From Gammaproteobacteria bacterium (GTDB lineage Bacteria > Pseudomonadota > Gammaproteobacteria > Burkholderiales > Gallionellaceae), in assembly GCA_018814405.1 (NCBI GenBank), contig JAHIZO010000004.1, positions 62,001-126,000 on the forward strand: 64,000 nt of DNA. The letters run 5' to 3'. This document shows, one piece after another, positions 8,922 to 64,000 of this stretch (the first letter of the stretch is position 1; the number at the start of each line of letters is the position of its first letter). Under the pieces are notes generated by a model. That model worked only from the letters and a program-made list of their open reading frames with translations. It had not been told where the DNA came from and made no database searches. The translations under genes and the position numbers were made by a program.

Positions 8922-10204
8922 ACGCAAGAAAATTCATCGCAGGCAGCTCACGCGAGGCCCTGAAACTGGTACGCATCGAATTGGGTGAGGACGCAGTCAT
9001 CTTGTCCAATCGCAAAGTGGCCGAAGGGGTCGAGATCGTCGCCATCCTGGGCAGTGAACTGGCACATCTGAACGAGACGCGCGTGGTCGAATCCCGCGCT
9101 TCATCCAAGCCACGTGTCGACAAACGTATCGAAGCGCGCCCCGGTCTGTCCGACCGGGCACAGAATCAGGCTTCCACGCTGGGTGCAAAGATCCTCGCAG
9201 CTGAAACACAACGCGCGGTGATACCGGCACCTGTTGCCGTCCAAGCTGCAGAAGAACCTGCCGAGCAGCAGCGTCTGTTGAGCGAACTGAAATCCATGCA
9301 CAAGCAGATGCAGGAGCAGATGGCCACGCTGGCGTGGGGCAACATCCAGCAGCAAGACCCGAAGCGCTCCGGTCTGATGCGCGATATGGTCAACGTCGGC
9401 TTCAGCCCCGCCTTGTCGCGCCGCCTGCTGGACAAGATGCCAGCCAATGCCGATCTGAACTGGGTCAAACGTATCCTCGCGCACAATCTGCGCGTGGCCG
9501 GCGTGCAGGACGATGTGGTGACGCGCGGTGGCGTGTATGCGCTGGTCGGCCCTACCGGTGTGGGTAAGACGACGACGACTGCGAAGCTGGCGGCACGCGC
9601 TGTGGTGCGCTATGGCGCTGACAAGGTGGCACTGGTCACCACCGACAGCTACCGTGTCGGCGCTTACGAGCAACTGCGCATCTACGCCAAGATCCTCGGC
9701 GTGACGGTGCATGCCGTGCGCGATGCCAATGATTTGAAACTCACCCTGTCCGGCCTCAAGCACAAGCATCTGGTACTCATCGACACCATGGGCGTCGGCC
9801 AGCGCGACAGCCGCGTGGCCGAGCAGACCCGCATGTTCGACGAAGCCGGTATCGACCGTTTGCTGTTACTGAACGCCACCAGCGCTGGCGGTACGCTGGA
9901 TGATGTGGTGAAGATGTACGGCGGTCCCGGTGTGATCGGTTGCATTCCGACCAAACTGGACGAAGCAGTCACGCTGGGCACGGTGTTGGATGTGGTGGCG
10001 CGCCACAAGCTGGCCATGCATTACATCGCCAGTGGTCAGCGCGTGCCGGAAGACTTGCACGAAGTGAAGCTGGACTATCTGTTGCATCGCACTTTCAAAG
10101 ACGTCGGCAAGGCATCTAACTTCGCTCTGCCGGAGATGGATTTCCCGGCCTTCATGGCCGGACTGACCAGCGGTGTAGCCGCGGGGAGGGAATATGCGCA
10201 CTAA
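8918..10204 (+). CDS. flhF: Flagellar SRP-type GTPase FlhF
   Basis: A 428-residue GTPase of the signal-recognition-particle family that sets the position and number of polar flagella. The N-terminal basic domain begins MNARKFIAGSSREALKLVR. The GTPase NG domain shows GPTGVGKTTTTAKLA (about residue 211), TTDSYRVGAYEQL and LVLIDTMGVGQRD. It is translationally coupled to flhA (4-base overlap) and to the following MinD-like gene (11-base overlap). FlhF normally partners FlhG, supporting a polar-flagellum organism. Confidence 0.95.
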   Translation: MNARKFIAGSSREALKLVRIELGEDAVILSNRKVAEGVEIVAILGSELAHLNETRVVESRASSKPRVDKRIEARPGLSDRAQNQASTLGAKILAAETQRAVIPAPVAVQAAEEPAEQQRLLSELKSMHKQMQEQMATLAWGNIQQQDPKRSGLMRDMVNVGFSPALSRRLLDKMPANADLNWVKRILAHNLRVAGVQDDVVTRGGVYALVGPTGVGKTTTTAKLAARAVVRYGADKVALVTTDSYRVGAYEQLRIYAKILGVTVHAVRDANDLKLTLSGLKHKHLVLIDTMGVGQRDSRVAEQTRMFDEAGIDRLLLLNATSAGGTLDDVVKMYGGPGVIGCIPTKLDEAVTLGTVLDVVARHKLAMHYIASGQRVPEDLHEVKLDYLLHRTFKDVGKASNFALPEMDFPAFMAGLTSGVAAGREYAH

Positions 10205-11123
10205 GACTCAAAATTTCGGCTTCGGCGATCAGGCCGCGGGTCTGCGCAAGCTGCTGGCGCGGGGCAATGCGCAGGTGATCACCGTGCTGGGGGCACGCGA
10301 CGGACTGGGCGCGACCAGCATCGTCACCAATCTGGCCGCGGTGTTCGCCCATTCCGGCAAGGACGTGCTGGTGCTGGATGAGAATCTTTCCCACGACAAT
10401 GTAGCCAACACGCTGGCACTGCGTCCGCGTTTCGATCTGTTGCATGCGGCACGCGGCGACAAGAGTTGGCAGGACGTGCTGCTGCAAGGCATGGCCGGTC
10501 CCGGTGTGTTGCCGGTGGCGCGCGCGATGCAGTCGCTGCCCAAGATGAGCGAGGCCGAGCGGGAACGTCTGCTGGAATCCCTGTTGGGTGCGGCGGTCGG
10601 TCGCGATGTGGTGCTGGTGGATGCAGCGCGCGACGGGAATTCCGTCTGCGCCAGTCTGTCCGGCGACGAACCCTTGCTGCTGGTGCTGAACGCCACTGCC
10701 AGCGGCATCACCGACAGTTATGCCTTGCTGAAGAAGATGGCGATGCACAACGGTCGCCAAGCCTTCGATATCGTGGTCAACCGCGTCGGCAGTGAACGCG
10801 AGGCGCTGGCGGTGTTCGACAATATGGAAAAGGTCGCGCGACATCATTTGCAGGTAAGTCTTTCGTATCTGGGCTATATTCCAGTTGATGAAAAGCTGAA
10901 ACGTGCGACACAATTGTGCCGTCCGGTAGTGGAAGCTTTCCCCTCTGCCGCATCGTCGATGGCGATGCGCGAGATCGCGCAAGGACTGTTACGAGCACCA
11001 AGCGTCAGCGAGCATGTACAGGACCGTTTGAGCAGTGTCATGCAAAGGCTGATGCGCATGTCGCAGCCGCGTGCCAATAACGGTATGCGTGCGCATGCCG
11101 GCGGAATGGCAGCGCTGACATGA
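10194..11123 (+). CDS. flhG: MinD/ParA-like flagellar number regulator FlhG (FleN) with degenerate P-loop
   Basis: A 309-residue ParA/MinD-family protein placed directly after flhF, where FlhG/FleN is expected. FlhG normally hydrolyses ATP and limits flagellar number by stimulating FlhF. The deviant Walker A normally reads KGGxGKT; here it is RDGLGAT (R35-T41), so both the signature lysine and the P-loop lysine are missing. The second motif is LVLDENLSHDN rather than LLDADLG. The fold is still recognisable (DVVLVDAARDG, FDIVVNRV). Identity is secure from context, but ATP hydrolysis is doubtful. Confidence 0.88.
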   Translation: MRTKTQNFGFGDQAAGLRKLLARGNAQVITVLGARDGLGATSIVTNLAAVFAHSGKDVLVLDENLSHDNVANTLALRPRFDLLHAARGDKSWQDVLLQGMAGPGVLPVARAMQSLPKMSEAERERLLESLLGAAVGRDVVLVDAARDGNSVCASLSGDEPLLLVLNATASGITDSYALLKKMAMHNGRQAFDIVVNRVGSEREALAVFDNMEKVARHHLQVSLSYLGYIPVDEKLKRATQLCRPVVEAFPSAASSMAMREIAQGLLRAPSVSEHVQDRLSSVMQRLMRMSQPRANNGMRAHAGGMAALT

Positions 11124-22581: not shown

Positions 22582-24618
<2,037 letters not shown>

Positions 24619-54511: not shown

Positions 54512-54806
54512 GAAGGACTTCAGGAGGAATAGCTACCAAAGCAGCCAATGAGCTAACTATCTGCCAATGGCTGCTATGAAATATTTACGAGCCATAGGTA
54601 TGGCAGATCTGGCGTGAATGCGCGCAATCGAAATCTATTAAGTATCGTTACCTCATCCTCCAATGCGTTGCACCATTTCGAAGCCTGATGGCCCTCAAAT
54701 GGAGCATGAATAGCATGGCAGCGCTTATAAACGTTCATCTGTTAGGAATCTATTGGGGTGGCTCGCTTATTGCTCCAATCCGGTTCAATGAGAGCCGGGA
54801 GCCAAA
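54512..54806 (+). other. Intergenic region before nasT with two interlocking inverted repeats
   Basis: No gene was found. AGCAGCCA (54540-54547) pairs with TGGCTGCT (54568-54575), and within that loop ATCTGCCA (54559-54566) pairs with TGGCAGAT (54601-54608), a pseudoknot-like order. TGCACCATTT at 54669-54678 resembles half an NtrC site. No clear promoter is visible. Confidence 0.4.
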
Positions 54807-55382
54807 TTGAAACGAATTCTAATCATTGATGATATTAAAGACAGGGCGGCGTGGTTGAGGGCCAGTCTGGAACTAGCTGATTTCCATGTGACCGGTGTGC
54901 TGGCATGGGAACAGGTGGACGAGCACGCGATTCAGGCGGCGGCAGCTGACGTCATCATCGTGGATGCGAATGCGCCGGGACGGGATACGCTGGAGCAGAT
55001 CAGCCTGATGTCCACCACGCTGGAAAAACCTGTAGTCGTGCTGGGCGGCAAGAAAGATCAGCAGAGCATCCAAGAGGCGATGCGTGCTGGGGTCAGCGCG
55101 TACGTGGCTCATACGATCCAGAGCGAGGATCTGAGCGAGATCATCCATGTGGCGGCGGCACGCTTCTTGGAACACAAGCGGCTGCGCGATGAATTGAAGG
55201 AAGCGCGGAACGAACTGGTCGAGCGCAAGACGGTGGACCGTGCCAAAGGCATCCTCATGGCCGATCACGGCTACAGCGAGGCGGATGCCTACAAGCGCAT
55301 GCGCAGCATGGCGATGAGCAAAGGCAAGCGCATGGCGGAGATCGCCGACGCGATCATCCTGGCCAAGGAACTGAGTGCCTGA
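54807..55382 (+). CDS. nasT: NasT-type response regulator with ANTAR RNA-binding domain
   Basis: A 191-residue transcription antiterminator. A receiver-like domain (residues 1-120; LIIDDIKDRAAWL, phosphoacceptor-like Asp in VIIVDANAPG) is followed by an ANTAR domain (residues about 130-190; RAKGILMADHGYSEADAYKR). NasT binds paired hexaloop hairpins in nitrate-assimilation leaders and prevents termination. The start is TTG with GGGAG upstream; no ATG is close. The usual repressor partner NasS is not next to it. Targets are at 55562-55645 and 58870-58966. Confidence 0.92.
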   Translation: MKRILIIDDIKDRAAWLRASLELADFHVTGVLAWEQVDEHAIQAAAADVIIVDANAPGRDTLEQISLMSTTLEKPVVVLGGKKDQQSIQEAMRAGVSAYVAHTIQSEDLSEIIHVAAARFLEHKRLRDELKEARNELVERKTVDRAKGILMADHGYSEADAYKRMRSMAMSKGKRMAEIADAIILAKELSA

Positions 55383-55436: not shown

Positions 55437-55529
55437 TGGGACGGTAGAGGCATCCGCTACCCAGACTCACAAGGGCAGAGAAAAAAATATTTCCATAGAT
55501 AACAATGAGTAATGGCTAGAAGCATTTGC

Positions 55530-55545
55530 TGGCACGGCTGTTGCT
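55530..55545 (+). promoter_or_regulatory. Sigma-54 promoter of the nitrate operon
   Basis: TGGCAC-N5-TTGCT is a perfect match to the -24/-12 sigma-54 consensus. Transcription should start near 55556, just before the first leader hairpin. Implies nitrogen-limitation control by NtrC. Confidence 0.9.
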
Positions 55546-55561
55546 TATAACAAAACATCAA

Positions 55562-55609
55562 CGGATCAACGGCGATTCGAAGGATTTGCAACACAGGACA
55601 AAGGCGTCC
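55562..55609 (+). promoter_or_regulatory. ANTAR (NasT) target leader 1: paired hexaloop hairpins
   Basis: P1: CGGATC-[AACGGC]-GATTCG, six pairs with one G-U. P2: GGAC-[AAAGGC]-GTCC. Each loop has six bases with A at 1 and G at 4, the recognition pattern of ANTAR proteins. P2 overlaps the 5' arm of the terminator, so both cannot form together. Confidence 0.85.
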
Positions 55610-55645
55610 CACTGCGTACAGCGCAGTCGGACGCCTTTTTTATTT
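55600..55645 (+). terminator. Leader terminator before nrtA
   Basis: AAAGGCGTCC-C-ACTGCG pairs with CGCAGT-C-GGACGCCTTT, a 17-bp stem with one C-C mismatch and a five-base loop, followed by T-rich sequence. It lies between the promoter and nrtA, so would stop transcription unless NasT holds P2. Confidence 0.92.
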
Positions 55646-55679: not shown

Positions 55680-56969
55680 ATGGATAAGTCAAAACTGGAA
55701 GCGGTCGTTGCGAGCGCGCAAGCGCCTGAACAGAATAGTCGGAGGGAATTCATGAAACAGACAGGTGCAGTACTGGGTGCGGCGGGGATCATGTCCATGG
55801 TCCCCATGGGAACACGTTCTGCAGCTTGGGCGGCGGGCTCGGATGCGCCAGAGTTGAAGGAGGTGAAGGTCGGCTTCATCCCGTTGACCGATTGCGCCTC
55901 GGTGGTGATCGCCTCGCTGATGAAGTTCGACGAGAAATACGGCATCAAGATCGTCCCCTCCAAGGAGGCATCTTGGGCGGCGGTGCGCGACAAGGTGGTC
56001 AACGGCGAATTGCATGCCGCGCACATCCTGTACGGCATGGTGTACGGCGTGCATCTTGGCATCGGCGGCAACCAGAAGGACATGGCCGTGCTAATGACCA
56101 TAGACAACAACGGTCAGGGCATCTCGCTGGCCAACCAGCTCAAGGACAAGGGCGTCACCGACGGTCCCTCGCTGGCGAAGCTGATCAAGGCGCAACCGCG
56201 CGAATACACTTTCGCCCACACCTTCCCGACCGGCACGCACGCCATGTGGCTGTACTACTGGCTGGCGAACTACGGCATCAACCCGATCTCCGAAGTGAAG
56301 ACCATCACCGTGCCGCCGCCGCAGATGGTGGCCAACGCGCGCGTCGGCAGCATGGACGGTTTCTGCGTGGGCGAGCCGTGGAACGCGCGCGGCATCTACG
56401 ACAACGTCAGCTTCTCGGTGGCGTCGTCGCAGGATGTCTGGCCGGACCATCCGGAAAAAGTGCTGGGTGCCACGGACGAGTTCGTGCAGAAATATCCCAA
56501 CACCGCACGCGCGCTCGTCATGGCGATGCTGGATGCGGCGAAGTTCATCGATGCCGAATCGAACCGCGCCAAGGTGGCCAAGATCATTTCCGCCAAGTCC
56601 TACGTCAATGCGCCGGTCGATGTCATCGAGGGGCGCTTCCTAGGCAACTATGAAGACGGTCTGGGTAAGAAGTGGCACGACCCTAACCACATGAAATTCT
56701 TCAACGATGGCAAGGTGCCGTTCCCCTATCTGTCCGACGGCATGTGGTTCCTCACCCAGCACAAGCGCTGGGGGCTGCTCAAGGATGATCCGGACTATCT
56801 GGGCGTCGCCAAACAGATCAACAAGATCGAGCTGTACAAGCAGGCCGCGTCGCAGGTCAAAGTGGCCGTACCCAAGGACGTGATGCGTTCCTCCAAACTG
56901 ATCGACGGCAAGGTATGGGACGGCAAGGATCCGAAGCAGTACGCGGCCAGCTTCAAGGTGCGTGCATGA
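55680..56969 (+). CDS. nrtA: Nitrate ABC transporter substrate-binding protein NrtA (NasF)
   Basis: A 429-residue periplasmic nitrate-binding protein. A Tat signal SRREFMKQTGAVLGAAG (residues 21-37) sends it folded across the membrane. The NrtA/SsuA-like domain includes VGFIPLTDCASVVIASLMKF, ASWAAVRDKVVNGELHAAH and DGFCVGEPWNARG. AAAGGAG precedes the ATG by 8 bases. The Tat signal separates it from cytosolic NasS sensors. Stop overlaps nrtB by four bases. Confidence 0.94.
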   Translation: MDKSKLEAVVASAQAPEQNSRREFMKQTGAVLGAAGIMSMVPMGTRSAAWAAGSDAPELKEVKVGFIPLTDCASVVIASLMKFDEKYGIKIVPSKEASWAAVRDKVVNGELHAAHILYGMVYGVHLGIGGNQKDMAVLMTIDNNGQGISLANQLKDKGVTDGPSLAKLIKAQPREYTFAHTFPTGTHAMWLYYWLANYGINPISEVKTITVPPPQMVANARVGSMDGFCVGEPWNARGIYDNVSFSVASSQDVWPDHPEKVLGATDEFVQKYPNTARALVMAMLDAAKFIDAESNRAKVAKIISAKSYVNAPVDVIEGRFLGNYEDGLGKKWHDPNHMKFFNDGKVPFPYLSDGMWFLTQHKRWGLLKDDPDYLGVAKQINKIELYKQAASQVKVAVPKDVMRSSKLIDGKVWDGKDPKQYAASFKVRA

Positions 56970-57739
56970 TGAAGATCAGGAACTTCTTTGCGGAGCAGCT
57001 GCTTCCGCCCGCCATCGGCATCGGCGTGTTCATTCTGGTGTGGAGCCTGATCGCGCAGACCGGCGAAAACCTGCCGGGACCGCTCAAGACCTGGGATTCC
57101 GCGGTGGAACTGTTCAGCGATCCGTTCTACCAGAACGGGCCGAACGACCAAGGCATAGGCTGGAACGTGCTCGCTTCGCTGGGTCGTGTCGGCATCGGCT
57201 TCGGCCTGGCCGCGCTGGTCGGCATCCCGCTGGGCTTCCTGATCGGACGCGTCGACTTCCTCAACCGGATGAGCGCACCGGTGGTGAGCATGCTGCGGCC
57301 GGTGTCGCCACTGGCCTGGCTGCCCATCGGCCTGCTGGTGTTCAACGCATCGAACCCGGCCGCCATCTGGGTGATCTTCATCTCCAGCATCTGGCCGATG
57401 ATCATCAACACCGCGATGGGCGTGCGCCAGCTGCCACAGGATTACCTCAATGTGGCGCGCGTGCTGAACCTGTCCGAATGGAAGGTGTTCGCCAAGATCC
57501 TGTTGCCCGCGACGCTGCCCTACATGCTCACCGGCATCCGTCTGGCTATCGGCACGGCATGGCTGGTGATCGTCGCGGCAGAGATGCTGACCGGCGGCGT
57601 GGGCATCGGCTTCTGGGTGTGGGATGAATGGAACAACCTGAACGTCGAACACATCATCATCGCCATCTTCGTGGTAGGCATCGTCGGCCTGCTGCTGGAG
57701 ATGATGCTGATCCAGATCGCCAAGCGATTCAGTTACTGA
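56966..57739 (+). CDS. nrtB: Nitrate ABC transporter permease NrtB
   Basis: A 257-residue inner-membrane permease with about six helices and the binding-protein-dependent permease EAA-like loop (LNVARVLNLSEWKVFAKILL). It forms the nitrate channel with the ATPase. ATG overlaps the nrtA stop. Confidence 0.94.
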   Translation: MMKIRNFFAEQLLPPAIGIGVFILVWSLIAQTGENLPGPLKTWDSAVELFSDPFYQNGPNDQGIGWNVLASLGRVGIGFGLAALVGIPLGFLIGRVDFLNRMSAPVVSMLRPVSPLAWLPIGLLVFNASNPAAIWVIFISSIWPMIINTAMGVRQLPQDYLNVARVLNLSEWKVFAKILLPATLPYMLTGIRLAIGTAWLVIVAAEMLTGGVGIGFWVWDEWNNLNVEHIIIAIFVVGIVGLLLEMMLIQIAKRFSY

Positions 57740-57750
57740 GCGGGGGGGCC

Positions 57751-58542
57751 ATGAGTAAATACGTGCAAATCGAGAATGTACAGATGAAGTTCAACACCAA
57801 GCAGGGACCGTTCATCGCGCTCAGGGACATCGACCTGAAGATAGATCCGGGCGAGTTCATCACGCTGATCGGCCACTCCGGCTGCGGCAAGTCCACCTTG
57901 CTCAACCTGATCGCCGGGCTGCTGCTGCCCAGCGAGGGCGTCATGCTGTGCGCGAACCGCGAGATCACCGGGCCGGGCCCGGATCGCGGCGTGGTGTTCC
58001 AGAACCATTCGCTGCTGCCCTGGCTGACCTGTTTCGAGAACGTGCACCTTGCGGTCGAGCGCGTGTTCGGACAGACGGAGAGCAAGGCGCAACTCACGCA
58101 GCGCACCAACGACGCGCTGGAACTGGTGCACCTGTCGCATGCGGCGCAGAAATTGCCGCATGAGATCTCCGGCGGCATGAAGCAGCGCGTCGGTATCGCG
58201 CGCGCGCTGTCCATGCAACCCAAGGTGCTGCTGATGGACGAGCCCTTCGGTGCGCTGGATGCCCTGACCCGCGCACACTTGCAGGATGAGTTGATGAAGA
58301 TCGTGGCCGATACCAAGAGCACCGTGGTGATGGTGACGCACGATGTGGACGAGGCGGTGCTGCTGTCCGACCGCATCGTGATGATGACCAACGGGCCGGC
58401 CGCGACCATCGGCGAAATACTGACGGTCGATCTGCCCAAACCGCGCGACCGTCTGGCGCTGGCCAACGATGCGAGATACCACAGCCTGCGTGGCGCGGTG
58501 CTGGAGTTCCTGTACCAGAAGCAGGCCAGGAAAGCGGCCTGA
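57751..58542 (+). CDS. nrtC: Nitrate ABC transporter ATPase (NrtC/NrtD type, short form)
   Basis: A 263-residue ATPase. Walker A GHSGCGKSTLLN, Q-loop FQNHSLLPW, signature ISGGMKQRVGIARA, Walker B VLLMDEPFGALD, H-loop VMVTHDVDEA. It lacks the NrtA-like C-terminal domain of cyanobacterial NrtC, so is of the NrtD/NasD type. GGGGGGG precedes the ATG. Confidence 0.94.
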   Translation: MSKYVQIENVQMKFNTKQGPFIALRDIDLKIDPGEFITLIGHSGCGKSTLLNLIAGLLLPSEGVMLCANREITGPGPDRGVVFQNHSLLPWLTCFENVHLAVERVFGQTESKAQLTQRTNDALELVHLSHAAQKLPHEISGGMKQRVGIARALSMQPKVLLMDEPFGALDALTRAHLQDELMKIVADTKSTVVMVTHDVDEAVLLSDRIVMMTNGPAATIGEILTVDLPKPRDRLALANDARYHSLRGAVLEFLYQKQARKAA

Positions 58543-58558
58543 TGCGATGGGAAAGAAC

Positions 58559-58822
58559 ATGACCTGCGTCGACATCCTGTACATCGGGCGTCCCAGCGAG
58601 TTCCTGCTGACGACCTCGGAACGGATGGAAGTGCCGGCTGCGGCTCCCACGCTGCAGCAGCTGCTGGGCAGCTTGCGTGCGCGCGGTGAGCGCTGGGCCT
58701 ACGAGCTCGATGCGCGGTATGTGATGTGCACGGTCAACCGGGTTCCGGCTGTCGCATCGGCACGCCTCGCGGCGGGAGACGAGATCGGCATCTATTCGCG
58801 CAAGTCCATCTTCGAGGCGTAG
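58559..58822 (+). CDS. MoaD/ThiS-like beta-grasp protein without C-terminal Gly-Gly
   Basis: An 87-residue protein resembling MoaD: APTLQQLLGSLRARGERWA, MCTVNRVPAVASARLAAGDE, IGIYSRKSIFEA. Real MoaD ends in Gly-Gly, which is thiocarboxylated; this one ends FEA. It sits between nitrate transport and nitrite reductase genes and ahead of a molybdopterin nitrate reductase, suggesting a cofactor or protein-protein role. The ATG with GGGAAAG upstream is chosen; one 12 bases earlier is possible. Confidence 0.75.
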   Translation: MTCVDILYIGRPSEFLLTTSERMEVPAAAPTLQQLLGSLRARGERWAYELDARYVMCTVNRVPAVASARLAAGDEIGIYSRKSIFEA

Positions 58823-58869
58823 TGCGTCGCATCGGAACGGTTGAATTGAACGGCAGTACGGCAGGCGAA

Positions 58870-58925
58870 GGATCGCACCCAACGGCGGGCGCAATCCGGC
58901 AGATGATAACGACAAAGGCGTCGTT
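58870..58925 (+). promoter_or_regulatory. ANTAR (NasT) target leader 2: paired hexaloop hairpins inside the operon
   Basis: P1: GGATcGCaCCC-[AACGGC]-GGGcGCaATCC, nine pairs with two mismatches. P2: AACGAC-[AAAGGC]-GTCGTT, six perfect pairs. Loop sequences are identical to those of leader 1, with A1 and G4 in each. P2 overlaps the following terminator. No sigma-54 box is seen before it, so read-through from nrt is likely. Confidence 0.88.
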
Positions 58926-58966
58926 TCGGCCCACCCGGACGGGTAGGGATCGGACGACGTTTTTTT
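58914..58966 (+). terminator. Leader terminator before nirB
   Basis: CGTCGT pairs with ACGACG, and CCCACCC pairs with GGGTAGGG around a GGAC loop; flanking AAAGG pairs with the T-run. Seven T follow. It lies 17 bases before nirB and would block nirBD-nasA unless antiterminated. Confidence 0.92.
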
Positions 58967-58983
58967 ATTGAGAGGAGTGCAAG

Positions 58984-61428
58984 ATGGAACAAGACAAGAA
59001 GCGGCTGGTGGTGGTCGGAAACGGCATGGCGGGTATACGCACCATCGAGGAATTGCTCAAGATGTCGGCGGATGAATTCGACATCACCGTGTTCGGCGCC
59101 GAGCCACAGCCCAACTACAACCGCATCCTGCTGTCGCCCGTGCTGTCCGGCGAGATGCCGTTCCAGGACACGGTGCTGAACGACTGGAACTGGTACGAGG
59201 AAAACCACATCACCCTGCACACGGGCAAGACGGTGACAAAGATCGACCGCATGCGCTGCACGGTGGAAACGGAGGACGGCATCGTCGTTCCCTACGACCG
59301 TCTGCTGATCGCCACCGGTTCCAATCCCATCATGCTGCCGGTCCCCGGCATAGACCTGCCCGGCGTGATCGGCTATCGCAGCATCGCCGACGTGGAGCAG
59401 ATGCTGGCCGCGGCGCAGCCGGGCAAGCGTGCGGTGGTGATCGGCGGCGGCCTGCTCGGGCTGGAAGCGGCGAACGGTCTGTCGCTGCGTGGCATGGAGG
59501 TGTCCGTGGTGCATCTGTGCGAATGGCCGATGGAGCGCCAGCTGGACAAGGTCGGCGGCGGACTGCTGAAAGAGGCGCTGGAGAAGCGCGGTCTGAAGTT
59601 CTATCTGTCGCGCCAGACCGACGCCATCCTCGGCGAGACGGCGGTCACCGGACTGAGATTTAAAGATGGCGAAGAGATCGCTGCCGATCTGGTGGTGATG
59701 TCGGCGGGCATCCGCCCCAACATCGCGTTGGCCAAGTCGGCCGGCATCCATTGCGAGCGCGGCATCATGGTGAGCGACACCATGCAAACCTACGACCCGA
59801 AGATATATGCGGTGGGGGAGTGCGTGCAGCATCGCGGGCAGACTTACGGTCTGGTCGCGCCGCTGTTCGAGCAGGCCAAGGTGGCGGCGAACCATCTCGC
59901 GCAATACGGCCGGATGCGCTACGAAGGCTCGTCCGTCTCGACCAAACTCAAGGTGACCGGCATCGACCTGTTCTCCGCCGGCGATTTCAATCCGGTGGCG
60001 GGGGATGACGAGCTGTTGCTGCAGGATGCGGCGCGCGGCGTGTACAAGAAGCTGGTGCTGCGCGACAACAAGCTGCGCGGGGCGGTGATGTACGGTGACA
60101 CCGTGGACGGTCCCTGGTATTTCCAGATGATGCGCGACGGCACCGATGTGTCCGAGATGCGCGAGCACCTGCTGTTCGGCCAGATGCACCTCGGCGACTC
60201 CGGCCACGGTGCCGGCGCCAGCGTGGCCAACATGCCGGACACGGCCGAGATCTGCGGCTGCAACGGCGTGTGCAAGGGCAGCATCGTCGATGCCATCGTC
60301 GACAAGAAACTGTTCACGCTGGACGAGGTGCGCGCCCATACCAAGGCCTCCGCCTCCTGCGGCTCGTGCACCGGGCTGGTGGAAGCGATCCTGGCGAACA
60401 CGCTGGGCGGCGACTATTCCGCCAAACCGAGCAAGAAGCCGATCTGCGCCTGCACCGAGCACGCGCATCAGGATATGTACAAGACGATACGCGCGCGCGG
60501 ATTGAAGAGCATCCCTGAGCTGATGCAGGCGCTGGAGTGGAAGACGGCGGACGGCTGCCATGTGTGCCGACCCGCGCTCAACTACTATTTGCTGGCCGCC
60601 TGGCCGGGCGAGTATGTGGACGACAGCCGCTCGCGTTTCATCAACGAGCGCGTGCACGCCAACATCCAGAAGAACGGCACCTATTCGGTGATCCCGCGCA
60701 TCTGGGGCGGCGTCACCTCGCCTGCGCAACTGCGTGCCATCGCCGAGATCGCCGAACGCCATGAAGTGCCCACCGTGCACATCACCGGCGGACAGCGCAT
60801 CGGTCTGTACGGCATCACCAAGGAGAACCTGCCGAAGATGTGGGCCGAGCTGGTCGAGGCGGGTTTCGTCTCCGGCCATGCCTACGGCAAATCCTTGCGC
60901 ACGGTGAAGACCTGCGTCGGCTCGGAGTGGTGCCGCTTCGGCACGCAGGACTCCACCGGCCTCGGCATCATGGTCGAGCAGATGACCTGGGGTTCGTGGA
61001 CGCCGCACAAGTTCAAGATCGCGGTGTCCGGCTGCCCGCGCAATTGCGCCGAGGCCACCATCAAGGATTTCGGCATTGTCTGCGTGGACTCGGGTTACGA
61101 GATACATGTCGGCGGCAACGGCGGCGTCAAGGTGCGCGTCACCGATTTCCTGTGCAAGGTGTCAAGTGAAGCCGAGGTGCTGGAATATTGCGGCGCCTTC
61201 ATGCAACTGTACCGCGAGGACGCCCATTACCTGGACCGCACCGCACCGTGGATAGAACGCGTCGGCCTGCCTTTCGTCAAGCGCCACATCGTCGATGACG
61301 CAGAGGGCCGTGCCGAGTTGTACGCGCGCTTCCTCAAGTCGCAGCAATATTCGCAGGACGACCCGTGGAAAGAGCGCGCCGAAGGCAAAGAAGCGCATGA
61401 GTTCACCGCACTCGCCACCATCGTATAA
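58984..61428 (+). CDS. nirB: NADH-dependent nitrite reductase large subunit NirB
   Basis: An 814-residue enzyme reducing nitrite to ammonium. FAD/NADH domains occupy about 1-300 (VVVGNGMAGIRTIEELL, AVVIGGGLLGLEAANGL). A BFD-like [2Fe-2S] domain at about 421-465 has CGCNGVCKGS and SCGSCTGL. The sirohaem/[4Fe-4S] domain has TCVGSEWCRFG (about 642) and SGCPRNCAEA (about 682). AGAGGAG precedes the ATG. Confidence 0.97.
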   Translation: MEQDKKRLVVVGNGMAGIRTIEELLKMSADEFDITVFGAEPQPNYNRILLSPVLSGEMPFQDTVLNDWNWYEENHITLHTGKTVTKIDRMRCTVETEDGIVVPYDRLLIATGSNPIMLPVPGIDLPGVIGYRSIADVEQMLAAAQPGKRAVVIGGGLLGLEAANGLSLRGMEVSVVHLCEWPMERQLDKVGGGLLKEALEKRGLKFYLSRQTDAILGETAVTGLRFKDGEEIAADLVVMSAGIRPNIALAKSAGIHCERGIMVSDTMQTYDPKIYAVGECVQHRGQTYGLVAPLFEQAKVAANHLAQYGRMRYEGSSVSTKLKVTGIDLFSAGDFNPVAGDDELLLQDAARGVYKKLVLRDNKLRGAVMYGDTVDGPWYFQMMRDGTDVSEMREHLLFGQMHLGDSGHGAGASVANMPDTAEICGCNGVCKGSIVDAIVDKKLFTLDEVRAHTKASASCGSCTGLVEAILANTLGGDYSAKPSKKPICACTEHAHQDMYKTIRARGLKSIPELMQALEWKTADGCHVCRPALNYYLLAAWPGEYVDDSRSRFINERVHANIQKNGTYSVIPRIWGGVTSPAQLRAIAEIAERHEVPTVHITGGQRIGLYGITKENLPKMWAELVEAGFVSGHAYGKSLRTVKTCVGSEWCRFGTQDSTGLGIMVEQMTWGSWTPHKFKIAVSGCPRNCAEATIKDFGIVCVDSGYEIHVGGNGGVKVRVTDFLCKVSSEAEVLEYCGAFMQLYREDAHYLDRTAPWIERVGLPFVKRHIVDDAEGRAELYARFLKSQQYSQDDPWKERAEGKEAHEFTALATIV

Positions 61429-61439
61429 GGAGAACTGGA

Positions 61440-61766
61440 ATGAACTGGATACAAGTCGGCAATCTGGAAGACATCCCGCGTCAGGGTTCGCGGGTGGTCA
61501 AGACCGCAACAGGCGAGATCGCGCTGTTCCGCAGCGTGGACGATCAGGTGTTCGCACTCAATAACCGCTGCCCGCACAAAGGCGGGCCGCTGTCGCAAGG
61601 CATCGTGCACGGCAAACGCGTCACCTGTCCGCTGCACAGCTGGGTAATCGATCTGGAGAGTGGCGAGGCCATCTCACCGGACAGCGGATGCGCACATCGG
61701 CTTGAAGTGCGCGTCGCCCACGGCGAATTGTTTCTCGAAGCCGAGGCGGGAGTATGCAAAGCATGA
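61440..61766 (+). CDS. nirD: Nitrite reductase small subunit NirD with intact Rieske ligands
   Basis: A 108-residue Rieske-fold partner of NirB. Cluster ligands are complete: C44 and H46 (CPHKGGPL), C63 and H66 (CPLHSW), so it probably holds a [2Fe-2S] cluster, unlike E. coli NirD, which lacks these residues. AAGGAG is upstream. Overlaps nasA by four bases. Confidence 0.94.
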   Translation: MNWIQVGNLEDIPRQGSRVVKTATGEIALFRSVDDQVFALNNRCPHKGGPLSQGIVHGKRVTCPLHSWVIDLESGEAISPDSGCAHRLEVRVAHGELFLEAEAGVCKA

Positions 61767-64000
61767 TTGCACCGAAGGCCATACGTACCGCCTGCCCGTA
61801 CTGCGGCGTGGGCTGCGGCGTACTGGCCACGGTGGCGGAAGATGGCGCAGTGCGTGTGTCCGGTGACGCGCAGCATCCGGCCAACCTCGGGCGCTTATGC
61901 TCCAAGGGTGCGGCGCTGGCCGAGACGCTGGGCGGCGACGGGCGGCTGCTGCATCCCGTCGTGGATGGGGCGCAAGCGTCCTGGGAGGTGGCGCTGGCGC
62001 GCGTGGCCGATGGCTTCAAGCAGGTCATCACCGAACACGGGCCGGAAGCGGTGGCGTTCTACGTCTCGGGTCAGCTGCTGACCGAGGATTACTACGTCGC
62101 CAACAAACTGATGAAAGGTTTCATCGGCAGCGCCAACATCGACACCAATTCGCGCCTGTGCATGTCCACGGCGGTGGCGGCGCACAAGCGCGCCTTCGGC
62201 GCCGATGCGGTGCCGGTCTGTTATGAGGATATCGAGGCGGCGGACCTGGTGGTCATCGTCGGTTCCAACTATGCGTGGGCGCATCCGGTGCTGTACCAGC
62301 GTCTGGCCGCGGCGAAGAAGGCTCGCCCGGAGATGCGGGTGGTGGTGGTCGACCCGCGCCGCACGGCGACCTGCGACATCGCCGACCTGCACTTGGCCAT
62401 CGTGCCCGGAAGCGATGCGTACCTGTTCAACGGCCTGCTGCATCACCTGCGGCGCGAGGATGCACTTGATCTGGCTTACGTCGAGGCACATGTGGAGGGA
62501 TTCGCTGCGGCGTTCGAAGCGGCGCGTTCGGTCAACTCCATCCCTGCGGTGGCGCAGGTTTGCGGCGTCGCCGAGACTGACATCGGCGAATTCTTCCGCC
62601 TGTTCGCGCGCACCGAACGTTGCGTGACCATCTTCTCGCAAGGGATCAATCAATCTTCCAGCGGCGTGGACAAGGCCAATGCGATCATCAACGTGCATCT
62701 GGCCACGGGCAGGATCGGGCGTCCCGGCATGGGGCCGTTCTCGGTGACTGGCCAGCCGAATGCGATGGGCGGACGCGAGGTGGGCGGGCTGGCCAATCAG
62801 CTGGCGGCGCACATGGATTTTTCCGATGCGGCCAGCATCAATCTGGTGGCGCGATTCTGGGATGCACCGAACATCGCGCAGCAACCCGGACTGAAAGCGG
62901 TAGACATGTTCCAGGCCATCGCGGATGGCAAGATCAAGGCGGTGTGGATCATGGGCACCAATCCGGTGGTGAGCATGCCGGATGCGGATCGTGTGCGCGC
63001 CGCTTTGCTGGATTGCGAACTGGTGGTGGTGTCCGATTGCGTGCTGCATACCGACACTACGGCCTGTGCCGATATCCTGCTGCCGGCTGCAGGCTGGGGC
63101 GAGAAGGACGGGGCGGTGACCAATTCAGAGCGGCGCATCTCGCGCCAGCGGGCTTTCCTGCCCGCGGCAGGCGAGGCGAGGCCGGACTGGTGGATCATCA
63201 CTCAAGTCGCCCAGCGCATGGGCTTCGGCGCGGCATTCGCGTACAGCAGACCTGCGCAGATATTCAACGAGCATGCCCGGCTGTCCGGCTTTGAGAACGC
63301 GGGGCAGCGCGCCTTCGACATCAGTGCGTTGTCTGGATTGGATGAGTCCGCATATGATGCACTGCAACCGCTGCAGTGGCCGCTCGATGCGCGCTCGCCC
63401 GCCGGGACGCAACGCATGTTCGCCGACGGGAAGTTCTGCACGCCCAGCGGCAAGGCGCATATGGTGGCGGTCGCGCCGTGCCTGCCCGCCGTGTCGACCG
63501 ATGACGATTTCCCGCTGCGGCTGAACACCGGCCGCATCCGTGACCAGTGGCACACCATGACCCGCACCGGCAAAGTGCCTAGACTGAATGCACATCAATG
63601 GGAACCCTTCGTGCAGATCCATGCACACGATGCGGAAGATCGACTGCTGCAGGATGGCACGCTGGCGCGCATCACCAGCCGGCACGGCACGATGTTGGCG
63701 CGGGTGCAGGTCAGCGCCGAGCAGCGCATCGGTTCGCTGTTCGCGCCCATGCACTGGAGCGATGCGTTTGCGAAAGCGGCCCGGGTGGACGCGCTGGTCG
63801 CTCCCATCACCGACCCGATCTCCGGCCAGCCGGAATCCAAACACACGCCGGTGCGGATCGAGCCCTATCGGCCCGCCTGGCAGGGCTTCGTGCTGAGCCG
63901 CAACAGGCTGGAACTGCCGGGCGCAGACTATTGCGCCAGTTCGCAGGGCGACGGCTATTGGCGGCATGAACTTGCGGGCGAGCTGGCGCCGGAGGACTGG
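61763..64000 (+). CDS. nasA: Assimilatory nitrate reductase catalytic subunit NasA (partial)
   Basis: The first 746 codons of a molybdopterin oxidoreductase; the gene continues past the window (family about 900 residues). The N-terminal [4Fe-4S] motif uses C11, C14, C18 and C46 (CPYCGVGCG, GRLCSKG). C133 in NSRLCMSTAV is the likely molybdenum ligand. GQPNAMGGREVGGLANQLAA is typical of NasA. ATG 61763 overlaps the nirD stop and has GGGAG ten bases upstream; ATG 61754 is a close alternative. Confidence 0.94.
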   Translation, partial: MIAPKAIRTACPYCGVGCGVLATVAEDGAVRVSGDAQHPANLGRLCSKGAALAETLGGDGRLLHPVVDGAQASWEVALARVADGFKQVITEHGPEAVAFYVSGQLLTEDYYVANKLMKGFIGSANIDTNSRLCMSTAVAAHKRAFGADAVPVCYEDIEAADLVVIVGSNYAWAHPVLYQRLAAAKKARPEMRVVVVDPRRTATCDIADLHLAIVPGSDAYLFNGLLHHLRREDALDLAYVEAHVEGFAAAFEAARSVNSIPAVAQVCGVAETDIGEFFRLFARTERCVTIFSQGINQSSSGVDKANAIINVHLATGRIGRPGMGPFSVTGQPNAMGGREVGGLANQLAAHMDFSDAASINLVARFWDAPNIAQQPGLKAVDMFQAIADGKIKAVWIMGTNPVVSMPDADRVRAALLDCELVVVSDCVLHTDTTACADILLPAAGWGEKDGAVTNSERRISRQRAFLPAAGEARPDWWIITQVAQRMGFGAAFAYSRPAQIFNEHARLSGFENAGQRAFDISALSGLDESAYDALQPLQWPLDARSPAGTQRMFADGKFCTPSGKAHMVAVAPCLPAVSTDDDFPLRLNTGRIRDQWHTMTRTGKVPRLNAHQWEPFVQIHAHDAEDRLLQDGTLARITSRHGTMLARVQVSAEQRIGSLFAPMHWSDAFAKAARVDALVAPITDPISGQPESKHTPVRIEPYRPAWQGFVLSRNRLELPGADYCASSQGDGYWRHELAGELAPEDW

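Follow-up and report, generated by a model that had tools for sequence, protein, structure and literature searches.

The nitrate gene run and its two leaders

The window, i.e., the whole 64,000-nucleotide stretch of DNA analysed here, contains a run of nitrate genes on the forward strand. It starts with nasT (54807–55382; TTG start codon), whose product combines a receiver domain (PF00072) with an ANTAR domain (PF03861, E 2.6e-18). This is the sole ANTAR gene found in the window's genome, and it sits in the same gene cluster as the two leaders described below. A possible sigma-54-like promoter of nasT, TGGCTCGCTTATTGCT (54759–54774, +), has one mismatch and lies 32 bases 5′ of the start; it is a weak candidate, and at up to two mismatches the sigma-54 pattern occurs 46 times in the window against 49.4 expected by chance. 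The sigma-54 promoter assigned to leader 1 and the nrt operon, TGGCACGGCTGTTGCT (55530–55545, +), has no mismatch, and the genome contains a match to sigma-54 (rpoN). A second perfect match to the consensus, TGGCACATGCCTTGCT, occurs elsewhere in the window (23916–23931, +).

Leader 1 consists of hairpin P1 (55563–55578; loop AACGGC, 55568–55573), hairpin P2 (55596–55609; loop AAAGGC, 55600–55605) and an intrinsic terminator (55600–55641) that P2 overlaps and that ends in a run of six T (55636–55641). It is followed by nrtA (55680–56969; start codon judged by eye), encoding a nitrate-binding protein of the NMT1_2 family (PF13379, E 7.4e-97), and by nrtB (56966–57739) and nrtC (57751–58542), encoding the permease and ATPase of the nitrate ABC transporter, which score above the cut-offs of TIGR01183 and TIGR01184, respectively. 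The last gene before leader 2 (58547–58822) encodes a small ThiS/MoaD-like protein, with 24 bits for PF02597 (cut-off 22.5) and 27.1 bits for PRK11130, below the cut-off of 94. Leader 2 (58870–58966) then separates it from nirB (58984–61428; ATG at 58984) and nirD (61440–61766), the large and small subunits of nitrite reductase (TIGR02374 and TIGR02378, both above cut-off). The open reading frame that runs off the window (61754–64000) is nasA-like and would encode an assimilatory nitrate reductase, judging from gene order and sequence reading rather than from a family scan. All these genes and both leaders lie on the forward strand, and their spacing is compatible with both leaders lying on one RNA.

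Direct reading of leader 2 reproduced the letters and coordinates given in the earlier note, which had described two hexaloop hairpins with loops AACGGC and AAAGGC. P1 (58870–58897) has the core CCC-AACGGC-GGG (58878–58889; loop 58881–58886) and an imperfect outer helix extending to GGAT/ATCC. P2 (58908–58925) reads AACGAC-AAAGGC-GTCGTT (loop 58914–58919) and overlaps an intrinsic terminator (58914–58966), whose run of seven T (58960–58966) ends 17 bases 5′ of nirB; a Shine-Dalgarno-like GAGAGGAG lies between them (58970–58977). The loops have the same letters as those of leader 1, again as the note had it. Leader 2 thus has the features of an ANTAR target, namely, two hexaloop hairpins with A1 and G4 in each loop and a P2 that overlaps a mutually exclusive intrinsic terminator. 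The P1–P2 linker is 10 nt counting the long imperfect P1 and 18 nt measured from the P1 core. According to the published account (PMC3369931), EutV sites have linkers of 5–12 nt and a linker of 14 nt is harmful; the leader 2 linker is therefore longer than those of the eut sites unless the outer P1 helix is counted.

The fold of 58866–58970 was more stable than all 200 shuffles (z = −3.9), but with slightly different ends (58860–58975) z was only −2.2 and five shuffles were as low. The antiterminator region alone (58876–58930) is no more stable than its shuffles (z 0.45), so P1 and P2 are supported by comparison between leaders and not by folding energy. A terminator scanner found no terminator in 58400–59000; it takes only short loops and unbroken stems, which is probably why it missed that of leader 2.

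Both strands of the window were scanned for pairs of A..G.. hexaloop hairpins in which the second hairpin overlaps a terminator. Leaders 1 and 2 were the only matches, and 20 dinucleotide-shuffled versions gave none; the rule was widened to tolerate one mismatch once a strict version (4-bp stems, no mismatch) had missed leader 2. Among the best 80 of 160 NirB loci, the scan gave 45 matches on the nirB strand, a total that includes a few leaders twice where two hairpin pairs suit the same terminator, versus a single match on the opposite strand. Even the widened rule missed one relative (L002), whose leader was found by a 3-bp rule.

A covariance model, R1, was built from 26 leaders (14 nirB-type and 12 nrtA-type), including leaders 1 and 2. 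At E ≤ 0.01 and with stricter filters, it matched only these two in the 2.38-Mb genome, with 83.8 bits for leader 1 and 55.0 bits for leader 2, scores from a model partly trained on them. Elsewhere in the window, the opposite strand of leader 1 reached 26.4 bits and the next best place 12.7 bits. A1 and G4 are present in both loops of all 26 aligned leaders, although the selection rule required this. In the alignment, P1 and P2 pair in 91.9% of cells, and cells with a double change number 31 against a shuffled mean of 14.0, a count reached by none of 500 shuffles; this excess is the compensatory stem change expected of ANTAR targets. The number of pairs with any double change, three, is not above that of shuffles (3.5), most variation lying between the two leader types, and three of the nine pairs are invariant. 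For the alternative structure of P1 plus terminator, 95.9% of cells are paired, with 35 double-change cells versus 16.3 from shuffles. Neither leader reaches the gathering score of any Rfam family.

These results support the claim that leader 2 is an antitermination leader of the NasT/ANTAR type within an nrt-nir-nas gene run, as far as sequence can indicate. A plain terminator or attenuator that NasT does not recognise would be consistent with the low stability of P1 and P2 as isolated hairpins; given that both loops repeat the letters of leader 1, with A1 and G4, and that P1 and P2 covary across the leader set, such an element is highly improbable.

nirB leaders with and without a promoter

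The earlier note had reported no separate sigma-54 promoter for leader 2. Indeed, no sigma-54 site with up to two mismatches occurs between 55545 and 60280, and the best sigma-54 matrix score in 58542–58881 is at chance level (349 of 500 shuffles were as high). A simple consensus search also found no sigma-70-like site in 57700–59000, nor in the three relatives scanned (L003, L006 and L012), where the search covered the 500 bases up to nirB. Consensus scans likewise showed no independent promoter in 58542–58870, the stretch where, by the note, a strong one would refute its reading; the absence is one of consensus and model scans, which a weak or unusual promoter there could escape.

A leader was searched for within 700 nt 5′ of nirB in 44 loci and was found by scan in 28. 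These leaders fall into two classes with nothing between them: 17 have a sigma-54 site 39–49 nt 5′ of P1 (score 15.0–23.9), and 11 have none (best score −9.9 to 3.3), by a matrix built from 20 sites, many of them among the scored leaders. At least two further leaders (L008 and L032) were missed by the scan and seen by eye, both with a sigma-54 site. Most promoter-bearing leaders (14 of 17) lie 20–95 nt 5′ of nirB, and the other three (L018, L022 and L134) lie 411–581 nt 5′ of it, ahead of thiS. In three loci (L017, 4025–4171; L027, 2847–2993; L028, 1330–1476), the terminator loop of the nirB leader carries a long insert (CACCCTCTCC...) with the stem arms intact.

The 11 promoterless leaders, those of the window, L002–L007, L012–L014 and L122, all belong to Gallionellaceae and sit between nrtC(-thiS) and nirB in 11 species. 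Both leaders are on one contig in nine of them, about 3.0–3.4 kb apart, and a tblastn search of the intervening DNA detected no genes other than nrtABC, with or without thiS. L007 and L014 have split contigs, with leader 2 downstream of nrtC-thiS or nrtC on one and a leader 5′ of nrtA on another. The ThiS/MoaD-like gene is present in several relatives; it was not found between nrtC and nirB in L012–L014 and L122.

The two classes bear on whether leader 2 is instead the ordinary 5′ leader of a separate nirBD-nasA unit, with a promoter that the scans missed, so that the two leaders would act in parallel and not in series. Such a promoter would not be unusual, as 17 of the 28 sampled nirB leaders have one, and so do three of the four ANTAR-controlled eut regions of E. 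faecalis (PMC5821096). However, nothing resembling a sigma-54 site precedes any of the 11 promoterless leaders, whereas the strong sites of the relatives stand at a nearly fixed distance; no sigma-70-like consensus site was seen in the four sequences scanned; and in L012 the nrtC stop codon lies only about 45 nt 5′ of the P1 loop. A separate unit is thus unlikely. With no promoter of its own visible for leader 2, one promoter feeding two serial checkpoints, as the earlier note proposed, would be the simplest reading.

In at least four loci (L009, L019, L020 and L140), nrtABC runs into nirB with leader 1 only, so the operon can exist without a second gate. At E ≤ 0.01, R1 has at least one match in 55 of 158 genomes of Gallionellaceae. 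Among 399 genomes of the order, it found a leader in 44, seven of these being Gallionellaceae; as the model was trained on Gallionellaceae and relatives, it will miss divergent leaders. Two R1 matches on one contig occur in five genomes outside the family, and no clear copy of the window's arrangement was found in the four of them considered (G378, G349, G278 and G224; G406 was left out). An ANTAR protein is present in all 17 relatives searched, two of which have two. In another family, a NasT-type leader lies directly 3′ of nasT (L144, 1367–1444; L143, 4646–4721), which is another internal placement; it precedes a long open frame that looks porin-like by eye.

Both cores, of 12 nt in P1 and 14 nt in P2, are 100% identical in all 11 promoterless leaders, whose species were picked for carrying the motif, though not for the exact core letters. 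Over the same 11, identity is 53% in the linker, 44% in the 45-nt upstream spacer, 71% in the terminator part, 82% in the 16 nt before nirB and 67% at nirB four-fold sites. The corresponding values for the window's group of seven are 46% (linker) and 70% (four-fold sites). The smaller group (L012–L014 and L122) offers no contrast on its own (linker 90%, four-fold sites 80%), so the contrast rests on the window's group and on both groups pooled, and part of the conservation may reflect recent ancestry. No species within the two promoterless groups of the NirB tree lacks the leader 2 motif. This conservation speaks against the view that leader 2 is a remnant of operon joining that has survived by chance and no longer has any control function. 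The comparative picture does fit two units that were joined with loss of the second promoter, but the cores stayed unchanged in all 11 species while spacer, linker and synonymous sites, compared over the whole set of 11, changed, and an unopened terminator 5′ of nirB would be costly. A functionless relic is accordingly very unlikely.

Promoter-bearing nirB leaders make up much of the sample and keep the promoter at an almost constant distance, which makes the promoterless state look derived. Leader 2 has probably lost its promoter when the nrt and nir units were joined and was then kept, to judge from these comparisons. Leader 2 as a recent duplicate of leader 1 was rejected, because each type has its own stem letters across species: nirB-type leaders have CCC/GGG and CGAC/GTCG, and nrtA-type leaders mostly have ATC/GAT or ATC/GGT and GGAC/GTCC. 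P2 has a fifth and a sixth pair (six pairs) in all 11 promoterless leaders; the fifth is broken in 16 of the 17 promoter-bearing ones, the seventeenth (L018) not matching the pattern used. This difference may represent one or two evolutionary events, not eleven.

On the NirB tree, the promoterless state needs two changes, and 0% of 200 bootstrap trees allow one, although support is weak (87/42) for the fork separating L012–L014 and L122 from the promoter-bearing L132. The NrtC tree resolves too little to tell one loss from two. The terminator loops of L003–L005 resemble those of L012–L014 and L122 (mean z 16.8), compared with z values of 5.1 and 5.9 for these two sets against ten promoter-bearing leaders. 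The loops of the window and L002 have diverged from all others (z 1.5 versus L012–L014 and L122), and the 46-nt upstream spacer shows weak similarity between L003–L005 and L012–L014 with L122 (mean z 2.6, range −0.3 to 6.7). Because of the terminator-loop similarity, two independent promoter losses are not claimed; a single origin with later exchange appears equally likely.

Proposed serial control of nitrate uptake and reduction by NasT

The region 58870–58966 is probably a NasT-dependent transcription antitermination leader inside an nrtABC-thiS-nirBD-nasA operon, serving as the second of two gates in series. This reading draws together the leader anatomy, the shared candidate regulator, the lack of a visible promoter, the conservation across species and the promoter-bearing relatives, as read from sequence and comparison; co-transcription, NasT binding, termination and its relief, a quantitative effect and an origin by the joining of units are what it would imply. 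A transcript from the sigma-54 promoter before nrtA would first meet leader 1. By the published ANTAR mechanism (PMC3369931), unbound leader RNA forms the terminator, while bound protein holds P1 and P2. NasT on both hexaloops of leader 1 would therefore maintain the P1/P2 antiterminator in place of the terminator, and nrtABC-thiS would be transcribed. About 3.3 kb further on, the same polymerase would reach leader 2, where NasT would be needed again for nirBD-nasA; without its action, transcription would end at 58966. Expression of nirBD-nasA would thus depend on two NasT events on one RNA, which would give less leak and make reduction track nitrate more steeply than uptake does.

The predicted terminator energies are nearly equal (−28.1 kcal/mol for leader 1 and −27.8 kcal/mol for leader 2), and the antiterminator hairpins are more stable in leader 2 than in leader 1 (P2, −5.7 versus −4.0; long P1, −12.1 versus −2.4). 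With stronger antiterminator hairpins against nearly equal terminators, the leader 2 gate may be the softer one in the model, opening at a lower NasT level. The two gates are unlikely to answer different signals, since they have the same loops and the genome has one ANTAR protein. Accordingly, the expected effect is a steeper or tighter form of one nitrate response for nirBD-nasA. The earlier note's suggestion that one transcript could yield different ratios of uptake and reduction is a plausible prediction.

A second gate could also have been retained for another reason. As a noise filter, leader 2 would stop chance transcription arising within nrtABC-thiS and be opened by NasT on nitrate; the mechanism would be the same as that of the two-gate reading and compatible with it. 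In conjugation operons, internal terminators combined with antitermination have been described as a way of countering spurious transcription (PMC8955417). Here, however, only about 3 kb would be guarded, and related operons manage without leader 2, which leaves the filter possible but somewhat doubtful.

A separate cytoplasmic NasS was not found in the window's genome, which is 98.7% complete and has two NMT1_2 proteins, NrtA (326.2 bits) and a distant one (49.6 bits). The ten other genomes with serially arranged leaders each have a single strong NMT1_2 protein, with second matches at no more than 76 bits; the absence of NasS is weaker for three of them (G142, G146 and G118), which are only 62–72% complete. 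A signal-less homologue in G086 scores 303 bits, so a protein of this kind would have been seen. NrtA has a twin-arginine-like signal motif, SRREFMKQTG, judged by eye, and TatC is present in the genome. A twin-arginine NrtA would fold in the cytoplasm and could bind nitrate and NasT before export. NasT might read one sigma-54 transcript twice, with reduction following roughly the square of NasT activity and uptake following it once, and with NrtA as the nitrate sensor in place of a dedicated NasS; this combined proposal is speculative and, on balance, quite improbable. Three loci (L132, L133 and L135) have a single strong homologue without a clear twin-arginine signal. In L139, a signal-less NrtA homologue (9478–10644) lies beside a distinct nrtA-nrtB-nrtC-nrtC set and is a candidate cytoplasmic NasS.

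The two-gate arrangement has partial counterparts in known systems. With the ANTAR dual-hexaloop RNAs (Ramesh et al. 2012, PMC3369931), leader 2 shares the A1/G4 hexaloop pair, the overlap of P2 with the terminator and the nitrogen genes downstream; it differs in its position within an operon and in lacking a visible promoter. The eut cluster of E. faecalis, with four EutV-controlled terminators according to the same paper, likewise has several ANTAR leaders and one regulator in one cluster. Unlike here, three of its four regions have constitutive promoters (PMC5821096), and its regulator is a phosphorylated response regulator answering ethanolamine. At least 13 ANTAR sites in six transcription units have been predicted in D. 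acetoxidans (PMC3369931).

Closer to nitrate metabolism, the nasA leader RNA of P. denitrificans is bound by NasT and has two identified hairpins, and a hairpin I mutant grew on nitrate like the nasT mutant, according to two reports (PMC3795266, PMC5424462). As described there, that system differs in having a single leader and a NasS sensor gene beside nasT. In Bradyrhizobium, NasT-type hairpins have been predicted 5′ of both narK and bjgb (PMC6759348), two genes of the narK-bjgb-flp-nasC unit that RT-PCR showed to be a single transcript (PMC4724949); serial NasT leaders in a nitrate operon have therefore been predicted before. The Bradyrhizobium gene order differs, however, and under denitrification narK-bjgb-flp rose in the nasT mutant. 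Since a putative FixK box is reported before bjgb (PMC6759348, PMC4724949), the second leader there may be served by a separate promoter. What is new here is the promoterless form of the second NasT leader, together with the conservation of this form and the existence of promoter-bearing relatives. Searches of open-licence papers gave no account of an nrt-nir operon with a second NasT leader ahead of nirB. P. aeruginosa nirBD is reportedly the subject of Romeo et al. (2012).

The relatives offer three natural versions of the locus: a nirB leader with its own sigma-54 promoter, a promoterless leader in a joined operon, and a joined operon without leader 2. The role of a second antitermination gate within one operon can thus be tested.

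narK RNA, P11 and NasT leaders

The narK RNA is said to originate from Weinberg et al. (2017). In the consensus of its Rfam family, RF03032, what reads as a sigma-54 promoter precedes the CAACGGCG hairpin and CGACAAAGACGUCG. Leader 1 matches this model over its whole length (55531–55610; 39.0 bits, E 3e-6), and leader 2 matches only positions 31–72, the half without the promoter (19.4 bits); neither reaches the gathering score of 43.2 bits. As a model independent of the sigma-54 matrix, RF03032 was also applied to nirB leaders in 20 genomes, where all nine promoter-bearing leaders scored 29.1–40.2 bits and seven of eight promoterless ones scored 18.1–27.3 bits; the model reported no match for the eighth (G135).

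In a sample of 369 genomes of the class, RF03032 found five places at E ≤ 1e-5 (leader 1 of the window, L150, L151, L152 and L154), two of them above the gathering score. According to the motif scan, four of the five carry the P1/P2 loops and an overlapping terminator beyond the end of the model. The fifth, L154, fails the scan, although inspection by eye shows a sigma-54-like stretch, a T-run and the two loops. A NasT-like gene (29–35% identity) lies within about 1.5 kb of three of the four places outside the window; none was found within the stretch examined for L151. Thus, RF03032 appears to describe a sigma-54 promoter joined to a NasT/ANTAR leader, and these comparisons suggest a function for this Rfam family, that of a NasT leader with a sigma-54 promoter. 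RF00625 (Pseudomonas sRNA P11) also aligns to leader 1 (55518–55635), promoter and terminator included, at 34 bits, below its threshold of 70, and P11 may therefore be a terminated NasT leader.
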